Assembly: GCF_900105925.1 (NCBI RefSeq)
Contig: NZ_LT629791.1
Span: 3,445,278-3,509,277 of the forward strand
DNA: 64,000 nt
Direction of reading: 5' to 3'
From: Jiangella alkaliphila
GTDB lineage: Bacteria > Actinomycetota > Actinomycetes > Jiangellales > Jiangellaceae
Of the stretch, positions 12,976-28,931 are shown piece after piece. Made by a program: the position numbers and the translations under genes. Within the stretch, counting starts at the first letter, position 1, and every line of letters begins with the position of its first letter. Below the pieces are notes generated by a model, which worked only from the letters and a program-made list of their open reading frames with translations, had not been told where the DNA came from and searched no databases.

Positions 12976-13060
12976 GCACACCACGCAGGGCCGAGTACCG
13001 CCGGGGGCGACCCCGGGCACGGAGCGCATCATCCGTTCCCGACAGTCGAAGGAGACTGTG

Positions 13061-16000
13061 GTGAGTCATCCCACGCACCGCGCCCGCCGATGGGCGCGAC
13101 GATTATTGGCTGCAGGTGTCGCCGTCGTGACGGCGGTGCCGCTGGCGGTCGCCGCGATGGCGCCGCCGGCGGCGGCCCACCCGGGCCATGGTGGCTACTC
13201 GATCCTGGTGTTCTCGAAGACCGCCGGGTTCCGGCACGACTCGATCCCCGCGGGCATCGCGGCGATCCAGCAGCTGGGCACCCAGCACGAGTTCGACGTG
13301 ACGGCGACGGAGGACGCCGCGGCGTTCACCGACGAGAACCTCGCCCAGTACGACGCCGTCGTCTGGCTGTCGACCACCGGTGACGTCCTCAACGCCGACC
13401 AGCAGGCCGCGTTCGAGCGGTACATCCAGGCCGGCGGCGGGTACGCGGGCATCCACTCCGCGTCCGACACCGAGTACAGCTGGCCGTGGTACGGCGAGCT
13501 TGTCGGCGCCTACTTCGCCAGCCACCCGCAGAACCAGACCGCGACGGTCAAGGTGGAAGACCCGGCGCACCCGTCGACCCAGCACCTCGACCCGCTCTGG
13601 CCGCGCTTCGACGAGTGGTACAACTACCAGACCAACCCGCGCGGCGACGTGCACGTGCTGACGTCGCTGGACGAGTCGTCGTACTCGCCGGGCACCGGCG
13701 CCATGGGCGCGGACCACCCGATCACCTGGTGCCAGGACTACGACGGCGGCCGCTCCTGGTACACCGGGCTGGGCCACACCATCGAGTCGTTCTCCGAGCC
13801 CGACTTCCTCCAGCTGGTCCTCGGCGGCATCGAGACCGCGGCGGGCGTCACGCCGGCCGACTGCTCGGCCAGCTCGCCGGACAGCTTCGAGAAGGTGACG
13901 CTCGACGACACCACCAGCAACCCGATGGAGCTGGCCGTCGCCGACGACGGGCGGGTCTTCTACATCGACCGCAACGGCGCCGTGCGGCTGGTCCGGCCGG
14001 ACGGCTCGGCCACGACCGTCGGCACGCTCAGCGTGTACACGGGCCAAGAGTTCGGCCTGATGGGCATCGCCCTGGATCCGGACTTCACCACGAACGGCTG
14101 GATCTACCTCACCTACGCCCCGACGGGGAGTGAGGCGATCGACCGGGTGTCGAGGTTCACCCTCACCGGCGAGACGCTCGACCTCGGCAGCGAGACCGTC
14201 ATCATCGAGTACCCGACGAACCGGGTCGAGTGCTGCCACGCCGGCGGCGCGCTGGAGTTCGACAACGACGGCAACCTGTACCTCACCACCGGCGACAACA
14301 CGAACCCGTTCGCGTCCAGCGGCTACGCGCCGATCGACGAGCGGCCCGGCCGCGAGCTCTGGGACGCCCAGCGCACGTCGGCCAACAGCAACAGCCTGAG
14401 CGGCAAGGTGCTGCGGATCACCCCGTCCGACGGCGGCGGCTACACGGTCCCCGCGGGCAACCTGTTCCCGCCGGGCACCGCGCAGACCCGGCCGGAGATC
14501 TTCGCGATGGGCTTCCGCAACCCGTTCCGCATCGGCCTGGACCCGGCGACGAACAAGCTCATGGTCGCCGACTACGGTCCCGACGCCGGCAGCGCCAACC
14601 CCAGTCGCGGCCCCGACGGCCGGGTCGAGTGGAACATCGTCGACCAGCCCGGCTTCTACGGGTGGCCGTACTGCGTCGGCAACAACACCCCGTACATCGA
14701 CTTCGACTTCGCCACCAACGCGTCCGGTGCGGCGTTCAACTGCGGCGCCCCGGTGAACAACTCGCCGAACAACACCGGCCTGACCCAGCTGCCGGCCGCC
14801 ATCGAGGCGGAGGTCTGGTACGGCTACCAGACCAACCCGCTGTACCCGGAGATCGGCGGCGGCGGCGCCCCGATGGCCGGCGGCGTCTACCGCTACGACG
14901 CCGACCTGGTCTCGGACCGCAAGTGGCCGGCGTACTGGGACGGCAAGGCGATCTTCGGCGAGTGGAACCAGGGCAACCTGTACTCGTTCCAGCTCGACGC
15001 CACCGGCTCGGACGTCACGGACATCAACCCGGTGTTCCCGGACTGGACGATCCTGCGGCCGCATGCGCTGGAGTGGGGTCCCGACGGCGCCCTCTACATG
15101 ATCGAGTGGGGCGGCGGGTTCGGCGGCAACAACGCCGACTCCGGCGTGTACCGCATCGACTACGTCCAGGGCACGCGTGCCCCGGTGGCCCGCATCGACG
15201 CCAGCGCGACGTCCGGCCCGGTGCCGCTCGAGGTCGCGTTCGACGGCACCGCGTCGATCGACCCCGAGGGCGGGCCGATCACCTACGCGTGGGACTTCGA
15301 CGGCGACGGCACGGTCGACTCCACCGAGCCGGAGGCGTCGCACACGTACACGACCGCCGGCGACTACACCGTCGCGCTGACCGTCACCGACGGCGACGGC
15401 CTGCAGGACGTGGCCAACGTCGAGATCGCGGCCGGCAACACCGCGCCGGAGGTCGACGTCGCGTGGCCGCCGAACGGCGGGTTCTTCGAGTTCGGCGACA
15501 CCATCCGGTACGAAGCGAGCGCCACCGACGCCGAGGACGGCCAGGCCGAGTGCCCGCGCATCGTCACCCAGCCGGCGCTCGGTCACGACGAGCACTCGCA
15601 CGAGTACGCCGAGTACTTCGGCTGCGAGGGCGTGTTCCCGCTGCCCGGCGACGAGGGCCACGTCGGCGCGAACATCTTCGGCACCGTCACGGTCACCTAC
15701 ACCGACAACGGCGCGCCGAACGTCAGCCCGCTGACCAGCCAGGAGGTGCTGATCCTGCAGCCCAAGCGGCGTGAGGCCGAGCACTTCGACCTCACCGGCC
15801 GGCTCGAGGGGTCCACCTCGGGCGGCGACCCGGGCGTGCAGCGCGAGACCACCGGCGACGTCCTGGGCGGCACCCAGAACATCGGGTTCATCGAGCCCGG
15901 CGACTGGTGGGCCTGGGACCCGATGAACCTCACCAACATCGACGACATCACGCTGCGGGCGGCCACGCCGACCGGCGCGTCGACGGTCGAGGTCCGCACC

Positions 16001-19000
16001 GGTTCGCCGGACGGCCCGACGGTGGCCACCATCACGGTGAACCCGACCGGCGGCTGGCAGACCTACGACTACTTCACCGGCGAGGTCAGTGGCGAGACGG
16101 CGGACGACAGCGGCCCGCTGTACTTCGTCAACGTGTCCGGCCAGCTCAACGTGAACTGGATCGACTTCGGCGGCCGCGGCGTCACCGAGAACCAGCGGCC
16201 CGACGTCGAGCTGACCGCGACGCCGACCAGCGGGACCGTCCCGCTCGACGTCGAGTTCGAGGCCAGCGCGACGGACCCCGAGGGCGACGACCCGCTCACC
16301 TACGCGTGGGTCTTCGGTGACGGCGGCACGGCCACCGGCCCGACGGCGGCGCACACCTACACGGAGGCGGGCAGCTACGACGCCTCCGTGACGGTGACCG
16401 ACGCGCGCGGCGCCGCGGCGACCGAGCACGTCACCATCGAGGTCGACCCGGTCATCACCGAGCCGCCGGTCTGCCTGAACGGGCGCTCCGACGGGTTCGA
16501 CGGCACGTCGCTGGACCGCGACCGCTGGACGACGGTGATCCGGGAGAACCAGGACCTCGTGGTCGAGGACGGTCACGTGGTGCTGCCGGCGACGGCGACC
16601 GACATCTACGGCACCAACAACACCGACACGCCGAACATCGTCCTGCAGGACCTGCCGGACGGGCCGTTCACCGCGACCGTGAAGCTCACCATGCAGGCCT
16701 ACCGGGCCTACCAGCAGGCCGGTTTGATCATCTACGGCGACGACGACAACTACGCCAAGATGGTGCTGGAGGGCCGGGACACCGGCACCACCAACCCGGC
16801 GGCGCGGATCTTCCAGTTCATCCGCGAGGAGAACGGCGCGCCCAACGAGGTCGGTGAGAGCAACACCGCCAACCTCGGCGCCGCCTACCCGGACACCGTC
16901 TGGGTGCGCTACATCAGCGATGGCAGCAACCTGCGCGCCGCGTACAGCGCCGACGGCGTGACCTTCACCGAGATGCCGCAGACGAAGAGCCTGGCCGGCA
17001 TCGAGGACCCGAAGATCGGCCTGGTCGCGCTGTCCGGCACCGGGCAGCCGATCACCGAGGTGCAGTTCGACTCGTTCCACATCACCCCCGACGACACCGC
17101 CACGCCGACGGAGCCGAACGACGAGTTCGCCGGCACCGTGCTGGACGGCTGCCGCTGGACGGTGCTGCGGCCGGACGCCGACGGCTACCGGGTCGCCGGC
17201 GGCAAGCTGGAGATCGACACCCCGAACGGCGACATCTACACCGGCAACACCGACCCGCTGCCGGGGAACTTCATGCTCCAGCCGGCGCCCGAGAGCGACG
17301 AGTGGACCATCGAGACCCTGGTCGACGCGTCCGCGCTGGTCGAGCAGTACCAGCAGGGCGGGATGATCGTCTACGGCGACGACGACAACTACGTCAAGTT
17401 CGACATGGTGGTCGACAACCCCGCCGGTCAGCCGGTGGCCCGCCGCATCGAGCTGCGCAGCGAGATCGGCGCCGTCATCCAGAACCCACAGCCCCAGGTC
17501 ACCGCGCTCACCCAGGGCGTGTGGCACCTGCGGCTGTCCCGGTCCGGCGACACCTACAGCGGCGCCTACAGCGCCGACGGCCAGACCTGGACCCCGCTGG
17601 GCGAGGCGGTCACCAACACCGCGCTGTCCTCCGGCGACGTGCGGGTGGGCCTGTTCGCCATCGGCACCTCGCAGTCCGAGCCGCAGACCGTGACGTACGA
17701 GCACTTCCGCGTCACCGGCGGCCAGGACGTGTGCGAGCCGACGGCGCCGGAGGAGGGCTACACCAGCCTCTTCGACGGCACCGAGGCCAGCCTCGCCGGC
17801 TGGCAGATGGCCGGCCCGGGCGGGTTCGCGCTGACCGAGGACTGCACCTTGCTGTCCGAGGGCGGCATGGGCCTGTACTGGTACTCGGCGGACGCCTACG
17901 AGGACTACAGCCTCAAGCTGGACTGGATGATGCCGGGCGACGACAACTCCGGCGTCTTCGTCGGGTTCCCGGACCCGGGCGACGACCCGTGGGTCGCCGT
18001 CAACCAGGGCCACGAGGTCCAGATCGACGCCACCGACGCCGCCGACCGCACCACCGGTGCGATCTACGCGTTCCAGGGCGCCGACCAGGCCGCTCGCGAC
18101 GCGGCGCTCAACCCGCCGGGCGAGTGGAACGAGTTCGAGATCGTGGTCCAGGGCGACCGCATTCGGGTGTACCTCAACGGTGAGTTGATCAACGACTACA
18201 CCGACACCGACCCGAACCGGATGAACCAGCCCAGCTACATCGGCATCCAGAACCACGGCGCGGCGGACCAGAACTACTTCCGCAACGTCCGCATCCAGGA
18301 GCTCGTCGACGAGACGGCGCCGACGGTCGAGGTCGCCCTCGACCCGGCCGAGCCGACCGGCCAGAACGGCTGGTACACCGGCCCGGTCTCCGTCACCGCG
18401 GTCGGCACCGACGACCAGGGCGGCGAGGTCGCGCTGGAGTACCGGACCGGCGGCGGCGACTGGGCGCCGTACACCGGTGCGGTCGTCGTGGACGCCGACG
18501 GCGAGCACGCGCTGGAGTTCCGCGGCACCGACACCGCGGGCAACGTGTCCGCGCCGGTGCCGGTGGCGATCGCGAAGGACGCCACCCCGCCGGTCACCAC
18601 GGCCACACTGGGCGGCGGCACCGGCGGCGCCGTGAACGTCACGCTCGCGGCCACCGACGCCACCTCCGGTGTCGCGGCCACCGAGTGGTCGCTCGACGGC
18701 GGCGACTGGACGGCGTACACCGGACCGGTCGCGGTCAGCGGCGACGGCGAGCACGAGCTGCTCTACCGCTCGTCCGACCAGGCCGGGAACGCCGAGGACG
18801 CCAAGGCGGTCACCGTGACCGTCGACGGGTCCGCGCCGGTCCTGTCGGTCAGCGGCGTCGCGCACGGCCAGCTCTACGGCGACAGCCAGAACCTGACCGT
18901 CGCCTGGACGGCCACCGACAACGGCCCGGTCACCGTGACCGGGACGCTGGACGGCGCGCCGATCCAGTCCGGCGCCGTGGTCGCGCTGCACGCGATCCCG

Positions 19001-19450
19001 CTCGGCCTGCACGAGCTGGTCGTCGAGGCGACCGACTCGGCCGGCAACGAGACCGTCCAGGAGCTGGTGTTCTTCTCCACCACGTCGTTCGCGGACATGG
19101 AGAGCCTGATCACCCAGTTCCAGACGGCCGGGCGCATCACGTCGCAGGTGGCCAAGGACCTGCAGAAGTCGCTGGCCACCGCCCGCCGCCAGGAGGGCAT
19201 GGGCCGCGAGGACCGGGCCGTGATCGCGCTGGAGTCCTTCAAGTCGGCGGTCAACAGCAAGGTCACCGACGCCGGTGCGCGCGGCACTCTGGTCCGCGAC
19301 GCCGACGCGATGATCATCCGGCTCGGCGGCACGCCACGGCAGGCGTCCGCCGGTGTCCGGGCCAACGGTGGCGAAGAACTCGCCGGTACGGGCCGTCTCG
19401 ACGGCGATCCGGACCGTACAGAGGGCAGGGAGTTGCCCGCCACCGACTAA
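13061..19450 (+). CDS. Secreted ThuA-GSDH-PKD-CBM6-DUF1080 fusion protein
   Basis: A 2129-residue secreted protein. I chose GTG 13061 because AAGGAG (13049-13054) lies 6 nt upstream and the next residues form a signal peptide (RRWARRLLAAGVAVV, ending PPAAA). Approximate domains: ThuA-like (44-270, VFSKTAGFRHDSI); GSDH propeller (275-703, ECCHAGGA, GFRNPFR); PKD (707-793); linker beta domain (793-903); CBM6-like (905-1040); PKD (1045-1128); two concanavalin-like domains (1144-1341, 1350-1553); DUF1080/3-keto-disaccharide hydrolase (1565-1747, SLFDGTEASLAGW, DDNSGVFVGF); three Ig/OmpL47-like repeats (1754-2000); helical C-terminal module. ThuA and DUF1080 families are linked to 3-keto-glycoside and trehalose-type catabolism. 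I infer extracellular binding and processing of a glycoside whose products feed the transporter upstream. Which domains are catalytically live cannot be told from sequence alone. Confidence 0.9.
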   Translation: MSHPTHRARRWARRLLAAGVAVVTAVPLAVAAMAPPAAAHPGHGGYSILVFSKTAGFRHDSIPAGIAAIQQLGTQHEFDVTATEDAAAFTDENLAQYDAVVWLSTTGDVLNADQQAAFERYIQAGGGYAGIHSASDTEYSWPWYGELVGAYFASHPQNQTATVKVEDPAHPSTQHLDPLWPRFDEWYNYQTNPRGDVHVLTSLDESSYSPGTGAMGADHPITWCQDYDGGRSWYTGLGHTIESFSEPDFLQLVLGGIETAAGVTPADCSASSPDSFEKVTLDDTTSNPMELAVADDGRVFYIDRNGAVRLVRPDGSATTVGTLSVYTGQEFGLMGIALDPDFTTNGWIYLTYAPTGSEAIDRVSRFTLTGETLDLGSETVIIEYPTNRVECCHAGGALEFDNDGNLYLTTGDNTNPFASSGYAPIDERPGRELWDAQRTSANSNSLSGKVLRITPSDGGGYTVPAGNLFPPGTAQTRPEIFAMGFRNPFRIGLDPATNKLMVADYGPDAGSANPSRGPDGRVEWNIVDQPGFYGWPYCVGNNTPYIDFDFATNASGAAFNCGAPVNNSPNNTGLTQLPAAIEAEVWYGYQTNPLYPEIGGGGAPMAGGVYRYDADLVSDRKWPAYWDGKAIFGEWNQGNLYSFQLDATGSDVTDINPVFPDWTILRPHALEWGPDGALYMIEWGGGFGGNNADSGVYRIDYVQGTRAPVARIDASATSGPVPLEVAFDGTASIDPEGGPITYAWDFDGDGTVDSTEPEASHTYTTAGDYTVALTVTDGDGLQDVANVEIAAGNTAPEVDVAWPPNGGFFEFGDTIRYEASATDAEDGQAECPRIVTQPALGHDEHSHEYAEYFGCEGVFPLPGDEGHVGANIFGTVTVTYTDNGAPNVSPLTSQEVLILQPKRREAEHFDLTGRLEGSTSGGDPGVQRETTGDVLGGTQNIGFIEPGDWWAWDPMNLTNIDDITLRAATPTGASTVEVRTGSPDGPTVATITVNPTGGWQTYDYFTGEVSGETADDSGPLYFVNVSGQLNVNWIDFGGRGVTENQRPDVELTATPTSGTVPLDVEFEASATDPEGDDPLTYAWVFGDGGTATGPTAAHTYTEAGSYDASVTVTDARGAAATEHVTIEVDPVITEPPVCLNGRSDGFDGTSLDRDRWTTVIRENQDLVVEDGHVVLPATATDIYGTNNTDTPNIVLQDLPDGPFTATVKLTMQAYRAYQQAGLIIYGDDDNYAKMVLEGRDTGTTNPAARIFQFIREENGAPNEVGESNTANLGAAYPDTVWVRYISDGSNLRAAYSADGVTFTEMPQTKSLAGIEDPKIGLVALSGTGQPITEVQFDSFHITPDDTATPTEPNDEFAGTVLDGCRWTVLRPDADGYRVAGGKLEIDTPNGDIYTGNTDPLPGNFMLQPAPESDEWTIETLVDASALVEQYQQGGMIVYGDDDNYVKFDMVVDNPAGQPVARRIELRSEIGAVIQNPQPQVTALTQGVWHLRLSRSGDTYSGAYSADGQTWTPLGEAVTNTALSSGDVRVGLFAIGTSQSEPQTVTYEHFRVTGGQDVCEPTAPEEGYTSLFDGTEASLAGWQMAGPGGFALTEDCTLLSEGGMGLYWYSADAYEDYSLKLDWMMPGDDNSGVFVGFPDPGDDPWVAVNQGHEVQIDATDAADRTTGAIYAFQGADQAARDAALNPPGEWNEFEIVVQGDRIRVYLNGELINDYTDTDPNRMNQPSYIGIQNHGAADQNYFRNVRIQELVDETAPTVEVALDPAEPTGQNGWYTGPVSVTAVGTDDQGGEVALEYRTGGGDWAPYTGAVVVDADGEHALEFRGTDTAGNVSAPVPVAIAKDATPPVTTATLGGGTGGAVNVTLAATDATSGVAATEWSLDGGDWTAYTGPVAVSGDGEHELLYRSSDQAGNAEDAKAVTVTVDGSAPVLSVSGVAHGQLYGDSQNLTVAWTATDNGPVTVTGTLDGAPIQSGAVVALHAIPLGLHELVVEATDSAGNETVQELVFFSTTSFADMESLITQFQTAGRITSQVAKDLQKSLATARRQEGMGREDRAVIALESFKSAVNSKVTDAGARGTLVRDADAMIIRLGGTPRQASAGVRANGGEELAGTGRLDGDPDRTEGRELPATD

Positions 19451-19485
19451 CCATCCTCCACCCCCCCTGAAGAGGAGACGTCACC

Positions 19486-19698
19486 ATGAGAGTTCTGCTG
19501 CCGTCCGGCGCGCCGCGCCGGAACGGAACCCGCGACCAGGGCACCTCGGCCCTGCCCCGGATCGCCGGGCCGGGCTCTCATGGGCGACGGGGAGCCGGCA
19601 CACGCCGGTTCCCGGCCCCGGTGCCGGAGCGACGCGCTCCGCGCCGGCACCGGGGCGCCACCACCCTCGTGGCGTCGTTCGAAGGGGTTGTCGCATGA
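19486..19698 (+). CDS. Possible 70-residue leader peptide before the Ebo-like operon
   Basis: A short frame with a very good AGAGGAG site 8 nt before its ATG, ending in a TGA that overlaps the ATG of the next gene by 3 bases. The peptide is Arg/Pro/Gly-rich and low in hydrophobic residues, and resembles no family I know. The frame runs through two hairpins (about 19592-19612 and 19615-19656). Either it is a translated leader coupling translation to the operon or controlling attenuation, or the ribosome site is accidental. The coding evidence is weak. Confidence 0.35.
   Translation: MRVLLPSGAPRRNGTRDQGTSALPRIAGPGSHGRRGAGTRRFPAPVPERRAPRRHRGATTLVASFEGVVA
19615..19656 (+). promoter_or_regulatory. 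Attenuator-like hairpin in the leader of the Ebo-like operon
   Basis: Perfect 13-bp GC inverted repeat (arms 19615-19627 and 19644-19656, 16-nt loop) preceded by a smaller hairpin (GAGCCGGC/GCCGGTTC, about 19592-19610). It ends 38 nt before the first operon ATG. It may terminate the upstream fusion-gene transcript, or act as an attenuator linked to the short leader frame that crosses it. Confidence 0.5.
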
Positions 19699-20864
19699 GC
19701 GGCGTCGGCATCTGGTTCGTCGGCGCTCGTGGCTCCGTGGCCACCACGACCACGGTCGGGCTCCTGGCCATCCGGTCCCGGCTGGCCGGCCACACCGGCA
19801 TGGTGTCCGAGCTGCCGGAGATCGCGGCGGCCGGGCTGCCGGCGCTGGACGGCGTCGTCATCGGCGGCCACGAGGTCGCCGAGGGCACGCTGGGCAAGCG
19901 GGCCGAAGAGCTGAGCGCGGGCGGGGTGTTCCCGCCCGCGCTGGCCACCGTCCTGGCCGGCGACCTCGCCGCCGCCGACGAGCGGATCCGGCCCGGCGTC
20001 GTCGCCGGGCACGGGACGCAGCGGTCGGCGGCGGACCGGGTCGAGGCCGAGCTGCGCGCGTTCCGCGACGAGCACGGGCTGGACCGCGTGGTCGTCGTCG
20101 ACGTGTCCAGCACCGAGCCGCCGGCCGCCGACATCCCGGCGCTGGCGACGCTCGCGGCGCTGGAGGCGGCGCTGGACGCGGGCGAGGCTCCACTGCCGGC
20201 CAGCTCGCTGTACGCGTATGCGGCGTTCCGGGCCGGCTGCCCGTACGTCGCGTTCACCCCCAGCCCCGGGCCGCGGGTCCCGGCGCTGGCCGAGCTGGCG
20301 CTGGACCGCGGCGTCCCGTGGGCCGGCTCCGACGCCAAGACCGGCGAGACGCTGGTCAAGACCGTGCTCGGCCCGATGTTCGCGATGCGCGCGCTGAAGG
20401 TGCGCTCGTGGTCGTCGGTCAACCTGCTCGGCGGCGGCGACGGGCAGACGCTGGCCGACCCGGACAACGCGGCCAGCAAGATCGCCACCAAGGCCAACGG
20501 CCTGGAGTCGATCCTCGGCCACCCGGTCGACGGGCCGCTGCACATCGACTACGTGCCCGACCTCGGCGACTGGAAGACCGCCTGGGACCTGGTGTCGTTC
20601 GAGGGCTTCCTCGGCACCCGCATGACCATGCAGTTCACCTGGTCCGGCTGCGACTCCTCGCTGGCCGCGCCGCTGGTGCTGGACCTCGTCCGGCTGATCG
20701 CGCGGGCGCACGAGGTGGGCGCCGCCGGGCCGGTGCCGGAGTTCGGGTTCTTCTTCAAGGACCCGGTCGCCAGCGACGTGCATGCGCTCAGCCCGCAGTG
20801 GGCGGCGCTGACCGACTGGTGCGAGCGGGCCGGCCAAGGCTCGGCGGGTCAGGGCGCGGTATGA
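19695..20864 (+). CDS. Inositol-3-phosphate synthase-like protein, first gene of Ebo-like operon
   Basis: The 389-residue protein has an N-terminal nucleotide-binding motif (GIWFVGARGSVATTT), a SDAKTGETLVKTVL segment typical of the myo-inositol-1-phosphate synthase (MIPS) active-site region, and DYVPDLGDWKTAWD downstream. MIPS enzymes cyclise glucose 6-phosphate with bound NAD. This is a divergent branch, unlike the usual actinobacterial Ino1, so a related cyclitol reaction is possible. ATG 19695 has GAAGGGG 7 nt upstream. Its TGA overlaps the next ATG (ATGA). In described ebo clusters the cyclising enzyme is a dehydroquinate-synthase-like EboD. Here a MIPS-like enzyme takes the leading position, which is inference from gene order. 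Confidence 0.8.
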   Translation: MSGVGIWFVGARGSVATTTTVGLLAIRSRLAGHTGMVSELPEIAAAGLPALDGVVIGGHEVAEGTLGKRAEELSAGGVFPPALATVLAGDLAAADERIRPGVVAGHGTQRSAADRVEAELRAFRDEHGLDRVVVVDVSSTEPPAADIPALATLAALEAALDAGEAPLPASSLYAYAAFRAGCPYVAFTPSPGPRVPALAELALDRGVPWAGSDAKTGETLVKTVLGPMFAMRALKVRSWSSVNLLGGGDGQTLADPDNAASKIATKANGLESILGHPVDGPLHIDYVPDLGDWKTAWDLVSFEGFLGTRMTMQFTWSGCDSSLAAPLVLDLVRLIARAHEVGAAGPVPEFGFFFKDPVASDVHALSPQWAALTDWCERAGQGSAGQGAV

Positions 20865-21880
20865 AGCTGCGCGACGTCGCCGAGCTGGTGCGGGCGCCCG
20901 CGGCGCTGACCGTGCCGGGCGACTCGCTGGCCGGCGCGGCCGCGGCCGGGTTCCCGTACGGCGTCCGGACCGCGGTCACGCCGCTGGCCTCGGCCTGCCT
21001 GTACTGGGCCGGCATGGCGCTGAACGACTACGCCGACCGTGACCTCGACCGTCTCGAGCGGCCGGAGCGGCCGATCCCGTCCGGCCGCGTCAAGCCGGCC
21101 GAGGCGCTGGCCGTGGCCACCGGGCTCACCGCCGCCGGCCTCGCGCTGGCGGCGGCGGCCGGTGGACGGCGGGCGCTGCGGGTCGCCGTCCCCCTCGCCG
21201 CGACGGTGTGGGCCTACGACTTCCTCGCCAAGCCGACGCCGGCCGGACCCGCGGTGATGGGGCTGGCCCGCGGCTTGGACGTGCTGCTCGGCGCCGGCGG
21301 CCGGGAACGCGCGGCGGCGTTGCCCGCGCTGGTCGTCGCCACGCACACCGTCGGCGTCACCGTGCTCAGCCGCGGCGAGGTGCACGGCGGGTCCACGGAG
21401 TCGGGTCGCTTCGCCCTTGGCGCGACGGCCGCGGCCTCGCTGGCCGCCGCCCTGCCGCGGTCGGCGTCGGCCCGCGCCGCGGACTCGCTCGCCCCGGCCG
21501 ACGCCCGGTGGCCCCGCTGGAGGGCTGCCGTCTCCCTCGACAGCAGCCCTCCATCGCGCGATGGAGAGCTGCGGTCTCCTGCGACAGCAGCCCTCCAGCG
21601 GGGCGACACCCCACTCCGGCCTGGGCTTTCGTCCGTCCGCGGGCTCGCCACGGCGGCGTTCGCCGGGGTGTATGCGGCGACCGTGGGTAAGGCCCAGTGG
21701 GGAGCGGCCCGCAGCCCGGACGCTGCGACCGTGCGGTCGGCGACCGGCGCCGGGGTGCGCGGCGTGATCCCGCTGCAGTCCGCGCTGCTGGCCAGGTCCG
21801 GGGCGGTCGTGCTGGCCGGCGCCGTCGTCGGGATCGGGCCGGCCGTCCGGGCGCTGTCCAAGGTGGTGTCACCGACATGA
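20861..21880 (+). CDS. UbiA-family prenyltransferase (EboC-like)
   Basis: The 339-residue membrane protein has the UbiA prenyl-diphosphate motif NDYADRDLD followed by RPIPSGRV, and several hydrophobic segments (LASACLYWAGMAL, LRVAVPLAATVWAYDF, ALLARSGAVVLAGAVVGI). UbiA enzymes join an isoprenoid chain to a soluble acceptor in the membrane. In ebo clusters the homologue (EboC) is thought to modify or carry the trafficked metabolite. The second motif region (WAYDFLAKPT) fits family placement. The gene overlaps both neighbours by 4 bases. Oddly, about 30 residues in the second half are encoded by a palindromic repeat (21512-21603) inserted in frame, giving a hydrophilic loop not expected in the family. 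Confidence 0.82.
   Translation: MKLRDVAELVRAPAALTVPGDSLAGAAAAGFPYGVRTAVTPLASACLYWAGMALNDYADRDLDRLERPERPIPSGRVKPAEALAVATGLTAAGLALAAAAGGRRALRVAVPLAATVWAYDFLAKPTPAGPAVMGLARGLDVLLGAGGRERAAALPALVVATHTVGVTVLSRGEVHGGSTESGRFALGATAAASLAAALPRSASARAADSLAPADARWPRWRAAVSLDSSPPSRDGELRSPATAALQRGDTPLRPGLSSVRGLATAAFAGVYAATVGKAQWGAARSPDAATVRSATGAGVRGVIPLQSALLARSGAVVLAGAVVGIGPAVRALSKVVSPT
21512..21603. repeat. Double palindromic repeat inserted in frame within the UbiA gene
   Basis: A 92-bp element whose ends are a perfect 17-bp inverted repeat (21512-21528 and 21587-21603). Its centre is a second hairpin (21543-21572, 15-bp arms with one mismatch). It also reads as two diverged direct copies of a roughly 38-bp palindromic unit, each ending in CGACAGCAGCCCTCCA. 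The unit keeps the reading frame open. It looks like a REP/BIME-type or small palindromic element invading a coding region. Confidence 0.8.
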
Positions 21881-22800
21881 GCCTCCGCTTCGGGTACGGC
21901 ACGAACGGCTTCGGCAGCCATCGCCTCGATGACGCGCTCGCCGTGATCGCCGGGCTGGGGTATGACGGCGTCGCGCTGACCGTCGACCATCCGCACATGG
22001 ACCCGTTCGCGCCGAACCTGTCCGCGCGCACCATCGCGGTCGGGCAGCGGCTGGCCGAGCTGGACCTCGCCGTCGTCATCGAGACCGGCGCGCGGTACGT
22101 GCTGGACCCGTGGCGCAAGCACGAGCCGAACCTGGTGTCCGACGCCGGCCGGGAGCGGCGGGTCGACCTGCTGTGCCGGGCGGTGCGGATCGGCGCCGAG
22201 CTGGGCGCCGAGGCGGTGTCGTTCTGGTCCGGGACGCTGCCCGGCGGCGTCAGCGCCGACGAGGGCTGGCGGCGGGTGACGTCCGGCGTGGCGTCGGTGC
22301 TCGAGGAGGCGGACAAGCGCGGCATGATCTGCGCGTTCGAGCCGGAGCCGGGGATGTTCGTCGACACCGTCGCCGGGGTTCTGGAGCTGCGCAAACGGCT
22401 CGGCGACCCGGAGGGCCTGCGGGTGACGCTGGACGTCGGGCACGTCGTCGCGAACGAGGCGGGCACTGTCGCCGACTGCGTCCACCAGGCCGGCGACCTG
22501 CTGGCGAACGTGCAGGTCGACGACATGGTCGAAGGGGTGCACGAGCACCTCGAGTTCGGCGAGGGCGAGGTCGACCTGCCGGCGGCGCTGGGCGCGCTGC
22601 TGGACGTCGGCTACGGCGGGCTGGCCGCCGTCGAGCTGCCGCGGCACGGACACGCCGCACCCGTCGTCGCGCGCCGCTCACTGGACGCTCTGCGCGCCGC
22701 CGAGGCCGAGGCACTGGCCACACGGACAGGACACGACGGGGGAGAGCGAGGGCGGGCCCGCGCAGTGCGGCAGCGCGACGGAGAGGAAGAAATGCCATGA
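21877..22800 (+). CDS. Xylose-isomerase-like TIM barrel protein (sugar phosphate isomerase/epimerase)
   Basis: The 307-residue protein has the AP-endonuclease-2/xylose-isomerase TIM barrel pattern: MSLRFGYGTNGFGSHRLDDALAVI at the start, FEPEPGM for a metal-binding Glu, VTLDVGHV for an Asp/His pair, and AAVELPRHGH near the end. Such proteins isomerise or epimerise sugars and inosose-like cyclitols with a divalent metal. The fused-looking tail (RTGHDGGERGRARAVRQRDG) is low-complexity and probably disordered. It overlaps UbiA and the EboA gene by 4 bases each, so it is co-translated in the Ebo-like operon. It may act on the product of the MIPS-like enzyme. Confidence 0.85.
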   Translation: MSLRFGYGTNGFGSHRLDDALAVIAGLGYDGVALTVDHPHMDPFAPNLSARTIAVGQRLAELDLAVVIETGARYVLDPWRKHEPNLVSDAGRERRVDLLCRAVRIGAELGAEAVSFWSGTLPGGVSADEGWRRVTSGVASVLEEADKRGMICAFEPEPGMFVDTVAGVLELRKRLGDPEGLRVTLDVGHVVANEAGTVADCVHQAGDLLANVQVDDMVEGVHEHLEFGEGEVDLPAALGALLDVGYGGLAAVELPRHGHAAPVVARRSLDALRAAEAEALATRTGHDGGERGRARAVRQRDGEEEMP

Positions 22801-23462
22801 GCGCGACGATCGAACGGACCGCCCCGCACTTGGACCAGGCCGCCCGCGAGCGGCTGGCCGAGCTGCTGGCGGAGGTCGAGAACGACCCCCGGCGCATCTC
22901 GGTGCTGTTCCCGGCGGTCGGGCGGCGGGTCACCCGCGGGCCGACCAACCCGGCCGACCCGGACGGGCTGCGCACGCCGCGGCTGGAGGACGAGGCACGG
23001 GCGGCGCTGCTGGTCACGGCCGCGGCCCGGCTCGACCGCGCCGCCCTGACCGAGGAGGTCGGCGCCCTGTATCAGTACGGCGACGCCGACGAGAAGCGGG
23101 CGGTGCTGCGGGCGCTGGCCGAGCTGGACCTCGGCGACGCCGGCCTGCCGCTGGTGGCCGACGCGCTGCGCACCAACGACGTCCGGCTGGTCGCCGCAGC
23201 GCTGGGGCCGTACGCCGCGCGGCACCTCGACGCGGCGGCCTGGCGCCAGGGCGTGCTGAAGTGCCTGTTCGTCGGCGTGCCGCTGGACGCCGTCGCGGAC
23301 CTCGACGCGCGCACCGACGAGGAGCTGGCCCGTATGGTCGCCGACTACGGCAACGAACGGGTGGCCGCCGGGCGGTCCGTGCCGAGCGACGCCTGGCGCA
23401 TCCTCGGCCGCCACCCCGAGGCGGTCGACGGCCGCTTCCCCGTCCCCTCCCAGGAGGACTGA
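22797..23462 (+). CDS. EboA domain-containing protein
   Basis: A 221-residue all-alpha protein with the repeated-helix, Leu/Ala-rich pattern of EboA: YQYGDADEKRAVLRALAELDLGDAGLPLVADALRTND, then KCLFVGVPLDAVADLDARTDEELARMVADYGNERVAAGRSVPSD near the end. No enzyme motif is visible. EboA has no known biochemical role but defines the ebo clusters studied for scytonemin-precursor export in cyanobacteria. The ATG overlaps the upstream stop by 4 bases and has a GAGAGGAAGA site. The protein is cytoplasmic by the absence of a signal. Assignment rests on remembered family pattern plus context (TatD, EboE-like and phosphatase genes next to it), which strengthens it. Confidence 0.75.
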   Translation: MSATIERTAPHLDQAARERLAELLAEVENDPRRISVLFPAVGRRVTRGPTNPADPDGLRTPRLEDEARAALLVTAAARLDRAALTEEVGALYQYGDADEKRAVLRALAELDLGDAGLPLVADALRTNDVRLVAAALGPYAARHLDAAAWRQGVLKCLFVGVPLDAVADLDARTDEELARMVADYGNERVAAGRSVPSDAWRILGRHPEAVDGRFPVPSQED

Positions 23463-23463
23463 C

Positions 23464-24339
23464 GTGCGCATCTTCGACCCCCACATCCACATGACCTCGC
23501 GCACCACCGACGACTACCAGCGCATGTACGCCGCCGGCGTCCGGGCGATCACCGAGCCGGCGTTCTGGCTCGGCCAGCCGCGCACCAACGTCGGCTCGTT
23601 CGTCGACTACTTCGACGCGCTGGTCGGCTGGGAGCGGTTCCGGGCCGCGCAGTTCGGCATCCGGCACCACTGCACGATCGCGCTGAACCCGAAGGAGGCC
23701 AACGACCCGCGCTGCCACGGCGTCCTCGAGGTGCTGCCGCGCTACCTCGCCAAGGACGGCGTCGTCGCGGTCGGCGAGCTGGGCTTCGACTCGATGACCG
23801 ACGACGAGGAGAAGGTGTTCGTCCGGCAGCTGGAGCTGGCCGGCGAGCACGACCTGCCCGTCCTCGTGCACACGCCGCACCGCGACAAGGCGGCCGGCAC
23901 CCGGCGCACGCTGGAGCTGGTCGCGGCCAGCGGGCTGCCGCCGGAGCGCGTGCTGGTCGACCACCTCAACGAGACCACCGTCGGCATGGTCGCCGACTCC
24001 GGCTGCTGGATGGGGTTCTCGATCTACCCGGACACCAAGATGGACGAGCACCGGATGGTGCGCATCCTCGCCGACCGCGGGATGGACCGGATGATCGTCA
24101 ACTCCGCCGCGGACTGGGGCCACAGCGACCCGCTGAAGACCGTCAAGACCGGCCGGGCCATGCTCGCCGAGGGGTTCAGCGCCGACGACGTCGACCGGGT
24201 GCTCTGGCAGAACCCGGTCGCGTTCTACGGGCAGAGCGGACGGCTGCTGCTGGACGAGGTCGACCTCGCCGGGACCGGCGGGCGCACCGCGACGTTCGAG
24301 GGCAACTCGATCCTGCGCGGCCAGCGACCGGAGGCGTGA
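23464..24339 (+). CDS. TatD-like metal-dependent hydrolase (EboB-like)
   Basis: The 291-residue amidohydrolase-fold protein starts with the metal site FDPHIHM and continues with VGELGFDSM (metal-bridging Glu), LVHTPHR, VLVDHLNE and a final NSAADWGHSD (catalytic Asp). These are TatD-family positions. TatD proteins are metal-dependent hydrolases. In ebo clusters the second gene (EboB) is of this type, with an unknown small-molecule substrate. The GTG start at 23464 is 1 nt after the EboA stop, with GGAGG upstream, and the end overlaps the start of the next gene. No signal peptide. Confidence 0.85.
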   Translation: MRIFDPHIHMTSRTTDDYQRMYAAGVRAITEPAFWLGQPRTNVGSFVDYFDALVGWERFRAAQFGIRHHCTIALNPKEANDPRCHGVLEVLPRYLAKDGVVAVGELGFDSMTDDEEKVFVRQLELAGEHDLPVLVHTPHRDKAAGTRRTLELVAASGLPPERVLVDHLNETTVGMVADSGCWMGFSIYPDTKMDEHRMVRILADRGMDRMIVNSAADWGHSDPLKTVKTGRAMLAEGFSADDVDRVLWQNPVAFYGQSGRLLLDEVDLAGTGGRTATFEGNSILRGQRPEA

Positions 24340-25514
24340 TGCGGTTCCGGCACCGCGACGGCACCGTCGTCCACCTCGCGTACTGCACGAACGTGCACCC
24401 GACCGAGGACGTCGAGGCGCTGCTGGACCAGGTGACGCGCTACGGCGCGGGCGCGCGGTCGCGGCTCGGCGTGTCGCGGCTGGGGCTGGGCCTGTGGCTG
24501 CCGGCCCCGGTGGTCGCGCGGCTGGCGTCCGAGGCCGGGCGGGCCGACCTCGACCGGTTGCGCGCGACGCTGGCCGCCGGCGGCCTGGAGGTGGTGACGC
24601 TCAACGCGTTCCCGTACCAGGGCTTCCACGACCCGCGGGTGAAGCTGGCCGTTTACCACCCGGACTGGCTGACGACCGAGCGGCTGGCGTACACGCTGGA
24701 CTGCGCCCGGGTGCTGGCCGCGCTGCTGCCCGACGACGCCGTCCGCGGCAGCGTCTCGAGCCTGCCGCTGGCCTGGCGCACGCCGTGGGACGACGCCCGG
24801 CGCGGGCTCGCCGCCGACCGGCTGGCGCAGCTGGCCGACGGGCTGGCCAAGGTCGAGGCCGACACCGGGCGGACGGTCCGGGTGGCGCTGGAGCCCGAGC
24901 CTGGCTGCGTCGTCGAGACCATCGACGGCGCGATCGCCCAGCTCGGCGGCGTCGACACCGACCGCATCGGGGTCTGCCTCGACGCCTGCCACCTGGCGAC
25001 GCAGTTCGAGGAGCCGATCGACGCGCTGGCCGCCCTCGCGGCCGCCGGGCTGCCCGTCGTCAAGACGCAGGCGTCGGCGGCGCTGGAGATCGCCGACCCG
25101 TCCGACCCGGCCGCCCGCAGGGCGCTGGCGGCCTACGCCGAGGACCGGTTCCTGCACCAGACCCGGGTGCGCACGCGCGGGCAGGTCATAGGCACCGACG
25201 ACCTCCCGGCGGCGCTGTCGTCGGCGGGGTTCCCGGACGACGGGACGTGGCGGGTGCACTTCCACGTGCCCGTGCACGAACAGCCGGCGCCGCCGCTGGC
25301 CGCCACCCAGCAGCACCTGACGGCGACGCTGCGCGGGCTGTTCGGCGGCGAGCGGGCGGTGACCGACCACGTGGAGGTCGAGTCGTACACCTGGTCGGTG
25401 CTGCCCGAGGGGCGCCGGCCGGATGGCCCGGACGGGCTGGTCGCCGGGCTTGCGGCGGAGCTGCGCTGGGTCGCGGACCGGATGGTGGAGATCGGTATGG
25501 AGGAGATCGCGTGA
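24339..25514 (+). CDS. EboE-type TIM barrel protein
   Basis: A 391-residue xylose-isomerase-like TIM barrel beginning with HLAYCTNVHP, a pattern I associate with EboE, followed by LGLGLWLPAPVV, TLNAFPYQGFHD, VALEPEPGC, ICVCLDACHLA-like GVCLDACHLATQFE, and RVHFHVPVHEQPAP. The conserved Glu, Asp and His residues fit a metal-binding isomerase/epimerase or hydrolase. EboE is annotated as a metabolite-traffic protein without known chemistry. I prefer ATG 24339 over the GTG at 24336 because GGAGG (24330-24334) then has a workable 4-nt spacing; the difference is one residue. The gene overlaps both neighbours. Confidence 0.78.
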   Translation: MRFRHRDGTVVHLAYCTNVHPTEDVEALLDQVTRYGAGARSRLGVSRLGLGLWLPAPVVARLASEAGRADLDRLRATLAAGGLEVVTLNAFPYQGFHDPRVKLAVYHPDWLTTERLAYTLDCARVLAALLPDDAVRGSVSSLPLAWRTPWDDARRGLAADRLAQLADGLAKVEADTGRTVRVALEPEPGCVVETIDGAIAQLGGVDTDRIGVCLDACHLATQFEEPIDALAALAAAGLPVVKTQASAALEIADPSDPAARRALAAYAEDRFLHQTRVRTRGQVIGTDDLPAALSSAGFPDDGTWRVHFHVPVHEQPAPPLAATQQHLTATLRGLFGGERAVTDHVEVESYTWSVLPEGRRPDGPDGLVAGLAAELRWVADRMVEIGMEEIA

Positions 25515-26890
25515 ACAAGCTGCTCGTGCTCGACGTCGTCGGCCTGACGCCGCGGCTGCTGGAGCACACCCCGAACCTGCGGGCGATCGCCGGCGAGGGC
25601 TGGCAGGCGGCGCTGGGGACGGTGCTGCCTGCCGTGACCTGCTCGGTCCAGTCGACGTTCCTCACCGGCGCGATGCCCCGCGACCACGGCGTCGTCGGTA
25701 ACGGCTGGTACTTCCGCGACCTCGGCGAGATCTTCCTGTGGCGCCAGCACAACCGGCTGGTCCAGGGCGAGAAGGTGTGGGACATCGCCCGGCAGGCCAA
25801 GTCCGACTACACCGTCGCGAACGTGTGCTGGTGGTACGCCATGGGCGCCGACACCGACTGGACGGTGACGCCGCGTCCGATCTACCACGCCGACGGCCGC
25901 AAGTCGCCGGACTGCTACACCCGCCCGCCGGCGCTGCACGACGAGCTGACCCGGTCGCTGGGGGAGTTCCCGCTGTTCCAGTACTGGGGCCCGACCGCGT
26001 CGATCAAGTCCAGCGACTGGATCGTGCAGGCCACCCGGCGGCTGATGCCGCAGGCCGACCTCACGCTGGCCTACGTCCCGCACCTCGACTACGACCTGCA
26101 GCGGTTCGGCCCGCACAGCCCGCAGGCCGTGGCCGCCGCCCGCGACATCGACCGGGTGCTGGCGCCGCTGCTGACCGAGGCCCGCGACCAGGGCGTCACC
26201 GTCGTCGCGCTCAGCGAGTACGGCATCGGCCCGGCCAGCCGCCCGGTGCACGTCAACCGGGCGCTGCGGCAAGCCGGACTGCTCGACGTCTACACCCAGG
26301 CCGGCATGGAGTACCTCGACCCGTGGGCGTCGCGGGCCTTCGCCGTGGCCGACCACCAGGTGGCGCACGTCTACGTCAAGGACCCGGCCGACCTCGAGGC
26401 CGTCCGCGAGCTGTGCCAGGCGCTGCCCGGCGTCGACCTCGTCCTGGACAAGCAGGCGCAGCGCGAGTTCGGGCTGGACCACGAGCGCTCCGGCGAGCTG
26501 GTGCTGGTGGCCGACATCGCCGCGTGGTTCACGTACTACTACTGGCTGCACGACGACCGCGCGCCCGACTTCGCCCGCGGCGTCGAGATCCACCGCAAGC
26601 CCGGCTACGACCCCGCCGAGCTGTTCCTCGACCCCGCCGACCCGCGGGTGAAGCTGCGCGCGGGGGCCAACCTGGCGAAGAAGAAGCTCGGCCTGCGCTA
26701 CACGATGAACGTCGTGCCGCTGGACGGCCAGTGGGTACGGGGCACGCACGGCCGGCTGCCCGACGACCCCGCCGACGGCCCGGTGCTGCTGTGCAGCGAC
26801 CCGTCGACCGCCCGCGACCAGCTGGCCGCGACCGACGTCCGCGACCTCATGCTCGAGCTGGCCGGGCTCAGCACCCCAGTACGGAAGTGA
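25511..26890 (+). CDS. Alkaline phosphatase superfamily / nucleotide pyrophosphatase-like protein (EboF-like)
   Basis: The 459-residue protein starts with a metal-binding LDVVGL strand and has VTCSVQSTFLTG carrying the likely Thr/Ser nucleophile, then PRDHGVVGNGWYF. YVPHLDYDLQRFGPHS and VVALSEYGIG follow, with later H residues (VADHQVAHVY), the layout of type I phosphodiesterase/nucleotide pyrophosphatase proteins. It lacks a signal peptide, so it should act in the cytoplasm, releasing phosphate or a nucleotide from an intermediate. GTG 25511 overlaps the EboE stop (GTGA). It closes the overlapping part of the operon and matches the position of EboF in known clusters. Confidence 0.82.
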   Translation: MNKLLVLDVVGLTPRLLEHTPNLRAIAGEGWQAALGTVLPAVTCSVQSTFLTGAMPRDHGVVGNGWYFRDLGEIFLWRQHNRLVQGEKVWDIARQAKSDYTVANVCWWYAMGADTDWTVTPRPIYHADGRKSPDCYTRPPALHDELTRSLGEFPLFQYWGPTASIKSSDWIVQATRRLMPQADLTLAYVPHLDYDLQRFGPHSPQAVAAARDIDRVLAPLLTEARDQGVTVVALSEYGIGPASRPVHVNRALRQAGLLDVYTQAGMEYLDPWASRAFAVADHQVAHVYVKDPADLEAVRELCQALPGVDLVLDKQAQREFGLDHERSGELVLVADIAAWFTYYYWLHDDRAPDFARGVEIHRKPGYDPAELFLDPADPRVKLRAGANLAKKKLGLRYTMNVVPLDGQWVRGTHGRLPDDPADGPVLLCSDPSTARDQLAATDVRDLMLELAGLSTPVRK

Positions 26891-26929
26891 CCCCGAGCGC
26901 ACCCGCGCCGACGCACGTAAGGAGACACC

Positions 26930-27937
26930 ATGGCACGACCGATCACCCTCTTCACCGGGCAGTGGGCCGACCTGCCGTTCGAAGAGGTCGCCCGGCTGGC
27001 CGGCGAATGGGGCTACGACGGCCTCGAGATCGCCTGCTGGGGCGATCACCTGGACGTCTGGCGCGCGGCCGAGGACGACGCGTACGTGAAGTCGCGGCAC
27101 GACATCCTGGAGAAGAACGGCCTGAAGGTCTGGACGATCTCCAACCATCTCAAGGGCCAGGCGGTCTGCGACGACCCGATCGACCAGCGGCACCGCGCGC
27201 TCCTGCCGGACCGCATCTGGGGCGACGGCGACCCCGAAGGCGTCCGTCAGCGCGCGGCCGAGGAGATGAAGGTGACGGCGCGCGCGGCCGCCCGGCTCGG
27301 CGTGGACACCGTCGTGGGCTTCACCGGCTCGGCGATCTGGAAGTACGTCGCGATGTTCCCGCCGGTGTCCGAGGACATGATCGAGGCCGGGTACCGCGAC
27401 TTCGCCGACCGGTGGAACCCGATCCTCGACGTGTACGACGAGGTCGGCGTGCGGTTCGCGCACGAGGTGCACCCCTCGGAGATCGCCTACGACTACTGGA
27501 CGACGGTGAAGACGCTCGAGGCGATCGGGCACCGCGAGGCGTTCGGTCTCAACTGGGACCCCAGCCACATGGTGTGGCAGGACCTCGACCCGGTCGCGTT
27601 CCTGTGGGACTTCCGCGACCGGATCTACCACGTCGACTGCAAGGACACGAAGAAGCAGCTCGGCAACGGCCGCAACGGCCGGCTCAGCTCGCACCTGCCG
27701 TGGGCCGACCCGCGGCGCGGCTGGGACTTCGTCTCCACCGGCCACGGCGACGTGCCGTGGGAGCAGTCCTTCCGGATGCTCAACGCGATCGGCTACGACG
27801 GCCCCATCTCCGTCGAGTGGGAGGACGCCGGTATGGACCGGCTGCGCGGCGCCGCCGAGGCCCTCGAGTTCGTGAAGTCGCACCTGTTCGACCCGCCGGC
27901 GGCGGCGTTCGACGCCGCGCTCAGCGGCGGCAACTGA
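26930..27937 (+). CDS. Sugar phosphate isomerase/epimerase (xylose-isomerase-like TIM barrel)
   Basis: The 335-residue cytoplasmic TIM-barrel protein has [21 protein letters not shown] at its N-terminus, [13 protein letters not shown], the metal-ligand run [30 protein letters not shown] and [12 protein letters not shown]. These are the Glu, Asp, His and Glu ligands of the family. Close relatives are annotated as sugar phosphate isomerases near Gfo/Idh/MocA and ThuA genes, consistent with 3-keto-sugar or inosose metabolism. AAGGAG lies before the ATG, 39 nt downstream of the EboF-like gene. It is probably in the same transcript but not translationally coupled. Confidence 0.88.
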
Positions 27938-27971: not shown

Positions 27972-28931
27972 ATGTGTTACGGATACGACGGCGACCGGGC
28001 TCTCGACGAGTCGCTGGGCCGGCGCGGACTGGGCCGGCGGACCTTCCTGCTCGGAGCGGCCGCGACCGCCGGTGGCGTGCTGGCCGGCGGCCTGGCCGGC
28101 GCGGCGCCCGCCGCGGCACACACCCGCCCGACCGGCGGCCGGATCGTCCCCCGCGGCGCGATCAGCATCCAGCTGTGGACGGTGCGTGACGCTCTGGCGC
28201 CCGGCGCCCTGTTCGACTCGACGCTGCGGTCGATCGCCGGCTACGGCTACACGAAGGTCGAGCAGGCGCTCGGGTACTTCGGCCGGACGGCCGCCCAACT
28301 GCGCGACTTCTACGACGAGATCGGCATCTCCTGCACCTCCAGCCACGACGGCATCAGCGCCGACCGTGCGTCGCTGGAGCAGAAGCTGGAGAACGCCGCC
28401 ACGCTGGGGCAGCGGTTCATCGTCGTCCCGTTCCTGCAGTCGGACAACCTGTCTGACTGGCAGCTGTGGGCCGAGCAGATGAACGAGGAGGCGCAGCTGG
28501 CGCGACGGTACGGGCTGCGCTACGGCTACCACAACCACGCGCACGAGTTCACCACCGACCTCGGCGGCGGCGTGACCCCGTGGGAGGTGCTGACGTCGGA
28601 GCTGGACCGCAAGCTGGTCCACCTCGAGGTCGACCTCTACTGGGCCGTGACCGGCGGCATCAACAGCGGCGTCCCGGTGAACCGGTCGGAGCAGTTCGCC
28701 ATCGACGTCATCGACGACGCGCGGCAGCAGACGCTGCAGTACCACGTCAAGGACCGGCACCTCAACGGCGGCGACATGGCCGACCTCGGCACCGGGCACA
28801 TCGACTTCCGCAAGATCTTCCGCGCGCACCGCGTGCTGGAGTACATCGTCGAGAACGACACCCCGGACGTCACCCCGCTGCAGACGGCGCGGGTGGGCTA
28901 CAAGTACCTGAGCGAGCTGCGCAAGCACTGA
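27972..28931 (+). CDS. Tat-exported sugar phosphate isomerase/epimerase-like protein
   Basis: The 319-residue protein has a twin-arginine signal (GRRTFLLGAAATAGGVLAGG, cleavage near AAAHT) followed by a TIM barrel of the xylose-isomerase-like type: AISIQLWTVRDALAPG, YTKVEQALGYFG, TSSHDGI, GYHNHAHEF, EVDLYWAVTGG and HVKDRHL. Similar exported proteins are found with Gfo/Idh/MocA and ThuA genes and may be 3-keto-glycoside lyases or epimerases acting outside the membrane. GAAAGGAG precedes the ATG. It follows the previous isomerase by 34 nt and ends the run of same-strand genes. Export after folding via Tat suggests it carries a bound metal cofactor. Confidence 0.85.
   Translation: MCYGYDGDRALDESLGRRGLGRRTFLLGAAATAGGVLAGGLAGAAPAAAHTRPTGGRIVPRGAISIQLWTVRDALAPGALFDSTLRSIAGYGYTKVEQALGYFGRTAAQLRDFYDEIGISCTSSHDGISADRASLEQKLENAATLGQRFIVVPFLQSDNLSDWQLWAEQMNEEAQLARRYGLRYGYHNHAHEFTTDLGGGVTPWEVLTSELDRKLVHLEVDLYWAVTGGINSGVPVNRSEQFAIDVIDDARQQTLQYHVKDRHLNGGDMADLGTGHIDFRKIFRAHRVLEYIVENDTPDVTPLQTARVGYKYLSELRKH

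Follow-up and report, generated by a model that had tools for sequence, protein, structure and literature searches.

An ebo-type operon of Jiangella alkaliphila with a myo-inositol phosphate synthase-like cyclase and an extra TIM barrel in place of EboD

A stretch of 64,000 nucleotides from Jiangella alkaliphila (contig NZ_LT629791.1, positions 3,445,278 to 3,509,277; hereafter, the window) was found to carry an ebo-type operon. It consists of seven plus-strand genes at positions 19695-26890, arranged in the order MIPS-EboC-TIMx-EboA-EboB-EboE-EboF, where MIPS stands for a myo-inositol phosphate synthase-like cyclase and TIMx for a TIM barrel resembling ketose 3-epimerases (Table 1). Five of the 6 junctions are 4-base overlaps, and EboA is separated from the TatD-like EboB gene by a single base. 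Judging from these overlaps, the layout suggests one transcript; no sigma-70 promoter or intrinsic terminator patterns were found in a scan of positions 19300-27100. The genes, coordinates and tight overlaps given in a preliminary description of this DNA were correct, and so was its assignment of the operon to the ebo type; EboA, EboE and the SCO3242-type prenyltransferase all score above curated cut-offs. That description had also raised the prospect that the protein encoded from 22797 is not EboA; such a misnaming was ruled out, given that the curated EboA model (NF035938) was passed. The AlphaFold2 model of EboA (predicted local distance difference test score, pLDDT, 95.2) is all-helical, but comparison with the PDB revealed no relative at E<=0.001 and taught us nothing about its function. 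EboF is 53% identical to that of Gemmatirosa and aligns end to end with EboF from EboD-type loci. No match to the EboD profile was found in the window.

The same arrangement recurs in other Actinomycetota. Among 396 sampled genomes, the SCO3242-family cut-off was passed in 17 (twice in one of them) and the EboE cut-off in 18. Besides the window, 19 Actinomycetota stretches (L033-L051) were taken for gene order, and 16 of these displayed the full seven-gene order, which is thus not a product of chance. The preliminary description had allowed for the first gene being an ordinary Ino1 unlinked to the rest in relatives; what we found was tight linkage. Of the stretches with a different content, L041 is a second ebo copy in one genome and lacks MIPS, and L051 is an EboD-type operon. 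The operon in L050 (9081-14037) looks decayed, without MIPS and TIMx, with a stop in EboC and with EboC and EboE split or shortened, although sequencing errors are possible.

EboD-type and other loci came from plasmid records and from a profile scan of genome contigs, which contributed 80 loci. Profiles built from some of the sampled loci were run on 114 loci (the window and L033-L145), and the 92 in which three or more of EboB, EboC, EboE and EboF exceeded 40 bits were kept, whereas 22 with fewer (L052, L062, L065 and 19 from the contig scan) were dropped. Among the 92 loci, 60 carried EboD, 22 carried MIPS, none carried both and 10 carried neither; EboD and MIPS did not occur together in any of the 114 scanned loci. 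TIMx, at >100 bits, was detected in all 22 MIPS loci, in none of the 60 EboD loci and in 4 of the 10 loci with neither cyclase. The preliminary description had pointed out that EboD is absent here, with MIPS and an extra TIM barrel instead, and the mutual exclusion across the 92 loci bears this out. In five of the loci with neither cyclase (L069, L081, L124, L127 and L143), the ebo genes lie at most ~300 bases from a contig end. The plasmid records showed a similar partition. EboE was present in 48 of them, 32 from actinomycetes and 16 from other organisms; among the matches listed, MIPS was found in 28 of the 32 actinomycete records and was missing from 4. Fifteen of the 16 others encode an EboD that shares at least 42% identity with the EboD of the Gemmatimonadetes locus L066, and the sixteenth, from Gemmatirosa kalamazoonensis, encodes MIPS. 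Neither cyclase was present in 4 of the 48 records and, among the matches listed, none had both, although a weak second cyclase is conceivable in records outside those matches. Many of the Streptomyces plasmid records are near copies of each other. The distance from MIPS to EboE, by start coordinates, was 4.4-5.2 kb for all 29 plasmid MIPS.

Two gammaproteobacterial loci, L118 (5183-11353) and L143 (264-7171), share the order TIM barrel-EboC-EboA-EboB-EboE-EboF with no cyclase in reach, L143 being cut upstream. In addition, EboB and EboF relatives were present in L123, a contig labelled as a Rickettsia typhi metagenome-assembled genome, a label that is doubtful.

Exchange of EboD and MIPS arose more than once. 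The Gemmatirosa locus L055 contains EboB, EboC, EboE, EboF, MIPS and TIMx, and no EboD was found in its 21 kb, the Gemmatirosa chromosome being outside the search. The EboD-bearing L066, a 4.6-kb contig from a metagenome assembly, is sister to L055 in the EboC and EboE trees (99 and 97, respectively, by the Shimodaira-Hasegawa-like approximate likelihood-ratio test, SH-aLRT), and in the EboF tree the two group with one Myxococcales EboD locus (SH-aLRT 96). Gains or losses of the MIPS label numbered 4 in the EboC tree, 3 in the EboF tree, 3 in the EboE tree and 4 in the EboB tree. In approximately unbiased (AU) tests, which are not strictly valid here because the groups were picked after viewing the trees, monophyly of the bacterial MIPS loci together with L041 was rejected for EboE (p-AU 2.8e-6), as was monophyly of all 22 MIPS loci for EboF. 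Since the haloarchaeal branch of the EboF tree is very long, we place more weight on the EboE test, which is free of haloarchaea.

Clusters that we regard as ebo-like, rather than ebo, were found on plasmids of Halobaculum (L061), Halocatena (L063) and Natronococcus (L064), that is, in 3 of the 6 haloarchaeal plasmid stretches with MIPS. In each of them, MIPS and an EboF relative stand beside an EboB-like gene, a UbiA gene and two TIM-barrel genes; the profiles built here did not find EboA, EboD or EboE. The EboC of L061 scored 178 bits against the EboC model and 170 bits against the SCO3242 model, below both cut-offs. The other 3 stretches, two from Halomarina (L062 and L179) and one from Halorussus (L180), showed no ebo genes.

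By sequence, the first gene of the operon is a MIPS. Its closest solved relative is Archaeoglobus fulgidus Ino1 (1u1i), matched over the whole length with an E value of 5e-70, and N243, K262, K266, K294 and K355 align with N255, K274, K278, K306 and K367 of 1u1i, which we take to be its catalytic residues. These residues are kept in all 22 ebo-linked MIPS and in all 17 other MIPS of the set. The enzyme may catalyse the defining reaction of its family, in which glucose 6-phosphate is turned into L-myo-inositol 1-phosphate. In a tree of 39 MIPS sequences, in which each row was required to have >250 aligned residues, 18 actinomycete ebo-linked MIPS form one clade (98/97), and 8 of the 30 Actinomycetota MIPS loci form a separate long branch with one Halorussus gene; the remaining 22 of the 30, the second copy of the J. 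alkaliphila genome and L181 were left out of this tree.

Such a full-length enzyme with all catalytic residues might simply feed myo-inositol phosphate into general metabolism (phosphatidylinositol, mycothiol), its place in the operon being due to chance or co-regulation, and the clustering of the non-ebo Halomarina MIPS with the haloarchaeal ebo-linked ones would fit this explanation. However, the only other MIPS in the genome, at 1195427 as compared with 3465620 for the ebo MIPS, passes the mycothiol Ino1 model TIGR03450 (694 bits, cut-off 638), whereas the ebo MIPS scores 34.7 bits. Thus, the mycothiol Ino1 is a separate, distant gene, and the identification of the ebo MIPS as the housekeeping Ino1 was rejected. 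Moreover, the linkage to ebo genes and the exclusion of EboD persist across phyla, and we consider a role in general metabolism highly improbable.

The AlphaFold2 model of TIMx (pLDDT 92.9) best matches, among PDB folds, the L-xylulose-5-phosphate 3-epimerase UlaE (E 5.5e-16, TM score 0.76), followed by ribulose, tagatose and allulose 3-epimerases, and the EPEP and DxGH motifs are invariant in TIMx. From this modelled fold, we infer that TIMx may epimerise a keto intermediate, either ahead of ring closure or once the ring has formed. TIMx of the Gemmatirosa locus is 50% identical to that of the window. Furthermore, relatives with 45-48% identity lie beside MIPS in three non-ebo clusters with YcaO, on plasmids of Hymenobacter, Methylobacterium and Roseomonas (Table 1), and MIPS and TIMx thus look like a portable pair. 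These clusters have TIMx in common with the ebo loci, and their MIPS comes from the same broad branch, but they lack ebo genes and instead carry YcaO and Gfo/Idh genes and, in two cases, a methyltransferase gene. A literature search for YcaO with inositol-3-phosphate synthase retrieved no paper. In L049, TIMx and EboA are fused in a single open frame, in agreement with the actinobacterial EboA/xylose-isomerase hybrids that a passage of PMC5133447 mentions as data not shown.

In comparisons with the PDB, the EboD profile matched dehydroquinate synthase best (209 bits), followed by 4p53, annotated 'Cyclase' and presumably EEVS (178 bits), and 2-deoxy-scyllo-inosose synthase (143 bits), scores that leave the substrate undecided. 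The ebo operon received its name in PMC5133447, passages of which propose an isoprenoid-cyclitol product and argue that EboD is a cyclitol-forming sugar phosphate cyclase. With EboD so proposed, both operon variants point to cyclitols, and the exchange of EboD for MIPS and TIMx makes a cyclitol the best-supported guess for the acceptor of EboC. We therefore lean towards a scheme in which MIPS and TIMx replace the unrelated EboD as the source of the cyclitol, EboC prenylates it and the product is a prenylated cyclitol. Of its parts, the supply by MIPS and TIMx of a cyclitol otherwise made by EboD is probable, and a prenylated inositol is a plausible final product. The preliminary description had favoured a cyclitol product over a shikimate-type one: the cyclitol stands as the better guess, but the contrast does not, because EboD had already been argued to form cyclitols (passages of PMC5133447).

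We picture the pathway and its product as follows. MIPS would most likely start from glucose 6-phosphate, or from a sugar phosphate that TIMx has epimerised, and yield an inosose or an inositol phosphate, with TIMx fixing the stereochemistry of a keto intermediate. EboC, a membrane enzyme, would then attach a prenyl chain to the cyclitol, EboB, EboE and EboF might trim or dephosphorylate the prenylated cyclitol, and EboA could aid assembly of the complex. The prenylated cyclitol may act as a carrier for metabolite export from the cytoplasm or may itself be a secreted metabolite.

Several observations weigh against this scheme. The 10 of 92 loci with neither cyclase include 4 (L041, L076, L082 and L118) in which the contig leaves room for one. 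The query of the contig scan was an EboF alignment led by the Gemmatirosa protein and only the best 80 of 590 were kept, so that the sample is not random. Independent contrasts yielded 2-3 pairs, not enough to run a sign test, and the exclusion thus rests on few events. The haloarchaeal TIM barrels resemble TIMx at the superfamily level only (119-147 bits), and the non-ebo MIPS of L062 and L179 cluster with the haloarchaeal ebo-linked MIPS. The PDB also holds a MIPS relative that is a five-membered-cyclitol-phosphate synthase (6k96), and the substrate of MIPS is therefore not readable from homology alone. Finally, the EboC homologue Ubi-297 of Flavobacteria farnesylates aromatic quinolines in vitro, according to PMC9235831, an activity at odds with a cyclitol acceptor.

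UbiA enzymes have two Asp-rich motifs, the second being DxxxD. EboC of the window has NDxxDxxxD, and the first motif is kept in all 12 aligned EboC, but visual inspection revealed no second motif in these proteins. In favour of a cyclitol acceptor, the best solved relative of the EboC profile is digeranylgeranylglyceryl phosphate synthase (6m31), which adds its prenyl group to a hydroxyl on a phosphorylated polyol. The window protein scored 135.5 bits against the curated EboC model (NF035940), below the cut-off of 250. The idea that EboC tracks the cyclase type was rejected, because EboD-bearing L066 and MIPS-bearing L055 have sister EboC proteins. At 339 amino acids, the UbiA gene product exceeds the 287-position model, and an imperfect palindromic repeat (21505-21620) sits in the extra stretch; this repeat has 22 matches, counting both strands, at ~10 places of the same genome.

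The preference of Ubi-297 for 8-hydroxyquinoline-2-carboxylic and quinaldic acid, reported in PMC9235831, a paper that also credits the actinomycete Saccharomonospora with an ebo cluster, raises the alternative that EboC prenylates an aromatic acceptor, with the product of the cyclase entering as another building block in its own right. These compounds appear, from the same paper, to be test acceptors with no known natural one among them, and the operon shows no other evident joining enzyme, an argument made in PMC5133447 passages. We regard an aromatic acceptor as distinctly unlikely.

Downstream, the operon adjoins two further TIM barrels, TIM8 and TIM9 (Table 1). With a profile seeded by the window and L055, TIM8 was detected at >200 bits in 8 of the 22 MIPS loci (window counted) and at >100 bits in none of the 60 EboD loci; TIM9 relatives adjoin the operon in several loci. 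Upstream are a Gfo/Idh/MocA oxidoreductase, a large multidomain protein, a ROK-family regulator and an ABC transporter with a sugar-type binding protein. Excluding the window, relatives of the oxidoreductase were found near 8 of the 21 MIPS loci, of the binding protein near 7, of the ThuA part of the large protein near 7 and of its PF06439 part near 6, as compared with 0, 0, 1 and 0 of the 60 EboD loci, respectively; its GSDH part discriminates less well (near 11 of 21 MIPS loci and 9 of 60 EboD loci). To us, the upstream neighbours look like a locus for keto-sugar oxidation next to the operon.

Table 1. Features of the window and of comparison loci (coordinates of the latter follow the locus name)
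Feature	Coordinates	Strand	Evidence
Gfo/Idh/MocA oxidoreductase, neighbour	11770..12975	+	PF01408
Large protein with ThuA, GSDH, PF06439 3-keto-disaccharide hydrolase, PKD and CBM domains, neighbour	12944..19450	+	Pfam
MIPS-like cyclase (Ino1, Archaeoglobus type)	19695..20864	+	PF07994 153 bits, PF01658 111 bits, above cut-off
UbiA-superfamily prenyltransferase, EboC equivalent (SCO3242 family)	20861..21880	+	NF045897 378 bits, cut-off 260
Imperfect palindromic repeat within the UbiA gene, in frame	21505..21620	no strand	
TIMx, ketose-3-epimerase-like TIM barrel	21877..22800	+	PF01261 119 bits
EboA	22797..23462	+	EboA domain NF035938 169 bits, cut-off 50
EboB, TatD-like metal hydrolase	23464..24339	+	PF01026 53 bits, cut-off 27
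EboE, TIM barrel	24336..25514	+	NF035939 406 bits, cut-off 250
EboF, type I phosphodiesterase/phosphatase family	25511..26890	+	PF01663 216 bits, above cut-off
TIM8, PF01261, IolE-like, neighbour outside the core	26930..27937	+	TIGR04379 42 bits, below cut-off 290
TIM9, neighbour, Tat-like leader by eye	27972..28931	+	PF01261 49.5 bits
MIPS-Gfo/Idh-YcaO-TIMx cluster, Hymenobacter plasmid	L065 7797-14423		
MIPS-Gfo/Idh-YcaO-TIMx cluster with methyltransferase, Methylobacterium plasmid	L176 5851-12822		
MIPS-Gfo/Idh-YcaO-TIMx cluster with methyltransferase, Roseomonas plasmid	L177 5638-12813		
ScyD/ScyE-family and multicopper oxidase genes around the ebo operon, Streptomyces plasmid	L053 2966-4165 and 13128-14606		

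The neighbourhood bears on a further possibility, namely, that ebo proteins serve mainly in export or trafficking ('metabolite traffic' in the NCBI names), the prenylated cyclitol being a lipid carrier and the cargo coming from neighbour genes. In Nostoc, ebo products are concluded to carry the scytonemin monomer to the periplasm (passages of PMC6282210), and the MIPS-type ebo operon of the Streptomyces plasmid L053 has a ScyD/ScyE-family gene ahead of it and a multicopper oxidase gene close behind, which recalls the scytonemin setting. However, no cargo genes are constant: the tested neighbours occur near 4 to 8 of the 21 MIPS loci, apart from the GSDH part. We hold this explanation to be possible but rather doubtful; it is compatible with a prenylated cyclitol made with the help of MIPS and TIMx and differs on the purpose of the product.

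As a bolder proposal, which we consider unlikely, the ebo product would be an O-prenylated, inositol-type C6 cyclitol lipid, with EboD and the MIPS-TIMx pair being non-homologous, interchangeable routes to one acceptor. EboD would then make an inosose-like ring, perhaps from glucose 6-phosphate, and not a C7 valiolone, and haloarchaea would have a reduced version of the pathway that lacks EboA and EboE. The ebo operon is widespread, and the swap of EboD for MIPS recurs in distant microbes. Two unrelated cyclitol-forming enzymes that replace each other, one with a well-understood reaction, give a handle on the acceptor of EboC and turn the guess between a cyclitol and an aromatic acceptor into a directly testable question. 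The finding also connects the sunscreen-export genes of cyanobacteria with a little-studied Streptomyces operon and with clusters on haloarchaeal plasmids.

Among known systems, A. fulgidus Ino1 is a stand-alone inositol phosphate synthase, whereas the window MIPS, alike over its whole length and in the five catalytic residues, belongs to an ebo operon. The gene set is not unique to J. alkaliphila, as NCBIfam names the UbiA family of the window after SCO3242 of Streptomyces coelicolor. The genes listed with the calcium-dependent antibiotic (CDA) cluster in PMC3610822 include SCO3242, a putative transferase, and SCO3243, given there as a myo-inositol phosphate synthase; the passages concerned give neither a function nor a link to ebo. 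The SCO3242-family prenyltransferase and the myo-inositol phosphate synthase are thus shared and, comparing the descriptions, SCO3242/SCO3243 probably represent the same operon type. Our literature search, largely without subscription papers, retrieved no paper linking ebo genes with inositol phosphate synthase, and a word search showed that 'inositol' is absent from PMC5133447 and PMC6282210. The eboABCDEF operon of cyanobacteria, Bacteroidota and eustigmatophyte plastids shares with the window EboA, an EboB-like protein, an EboC-like UbiA, EboE and EboF. In contrast, the window has MIPS and TIMx, and no EboD, in the order MIPS-C-TIMx-A-B-E-F, and its EboC falls under the curated EboC cut-off. 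The BE-40644 pathway, in which a cyclitol made by EEVS is then farnesylated by a UbiA enzyme (passages of PMC5133447), employs a cyclase of another family and other enzymes but follows the same logic of cyclitol first and prenyl chain second.

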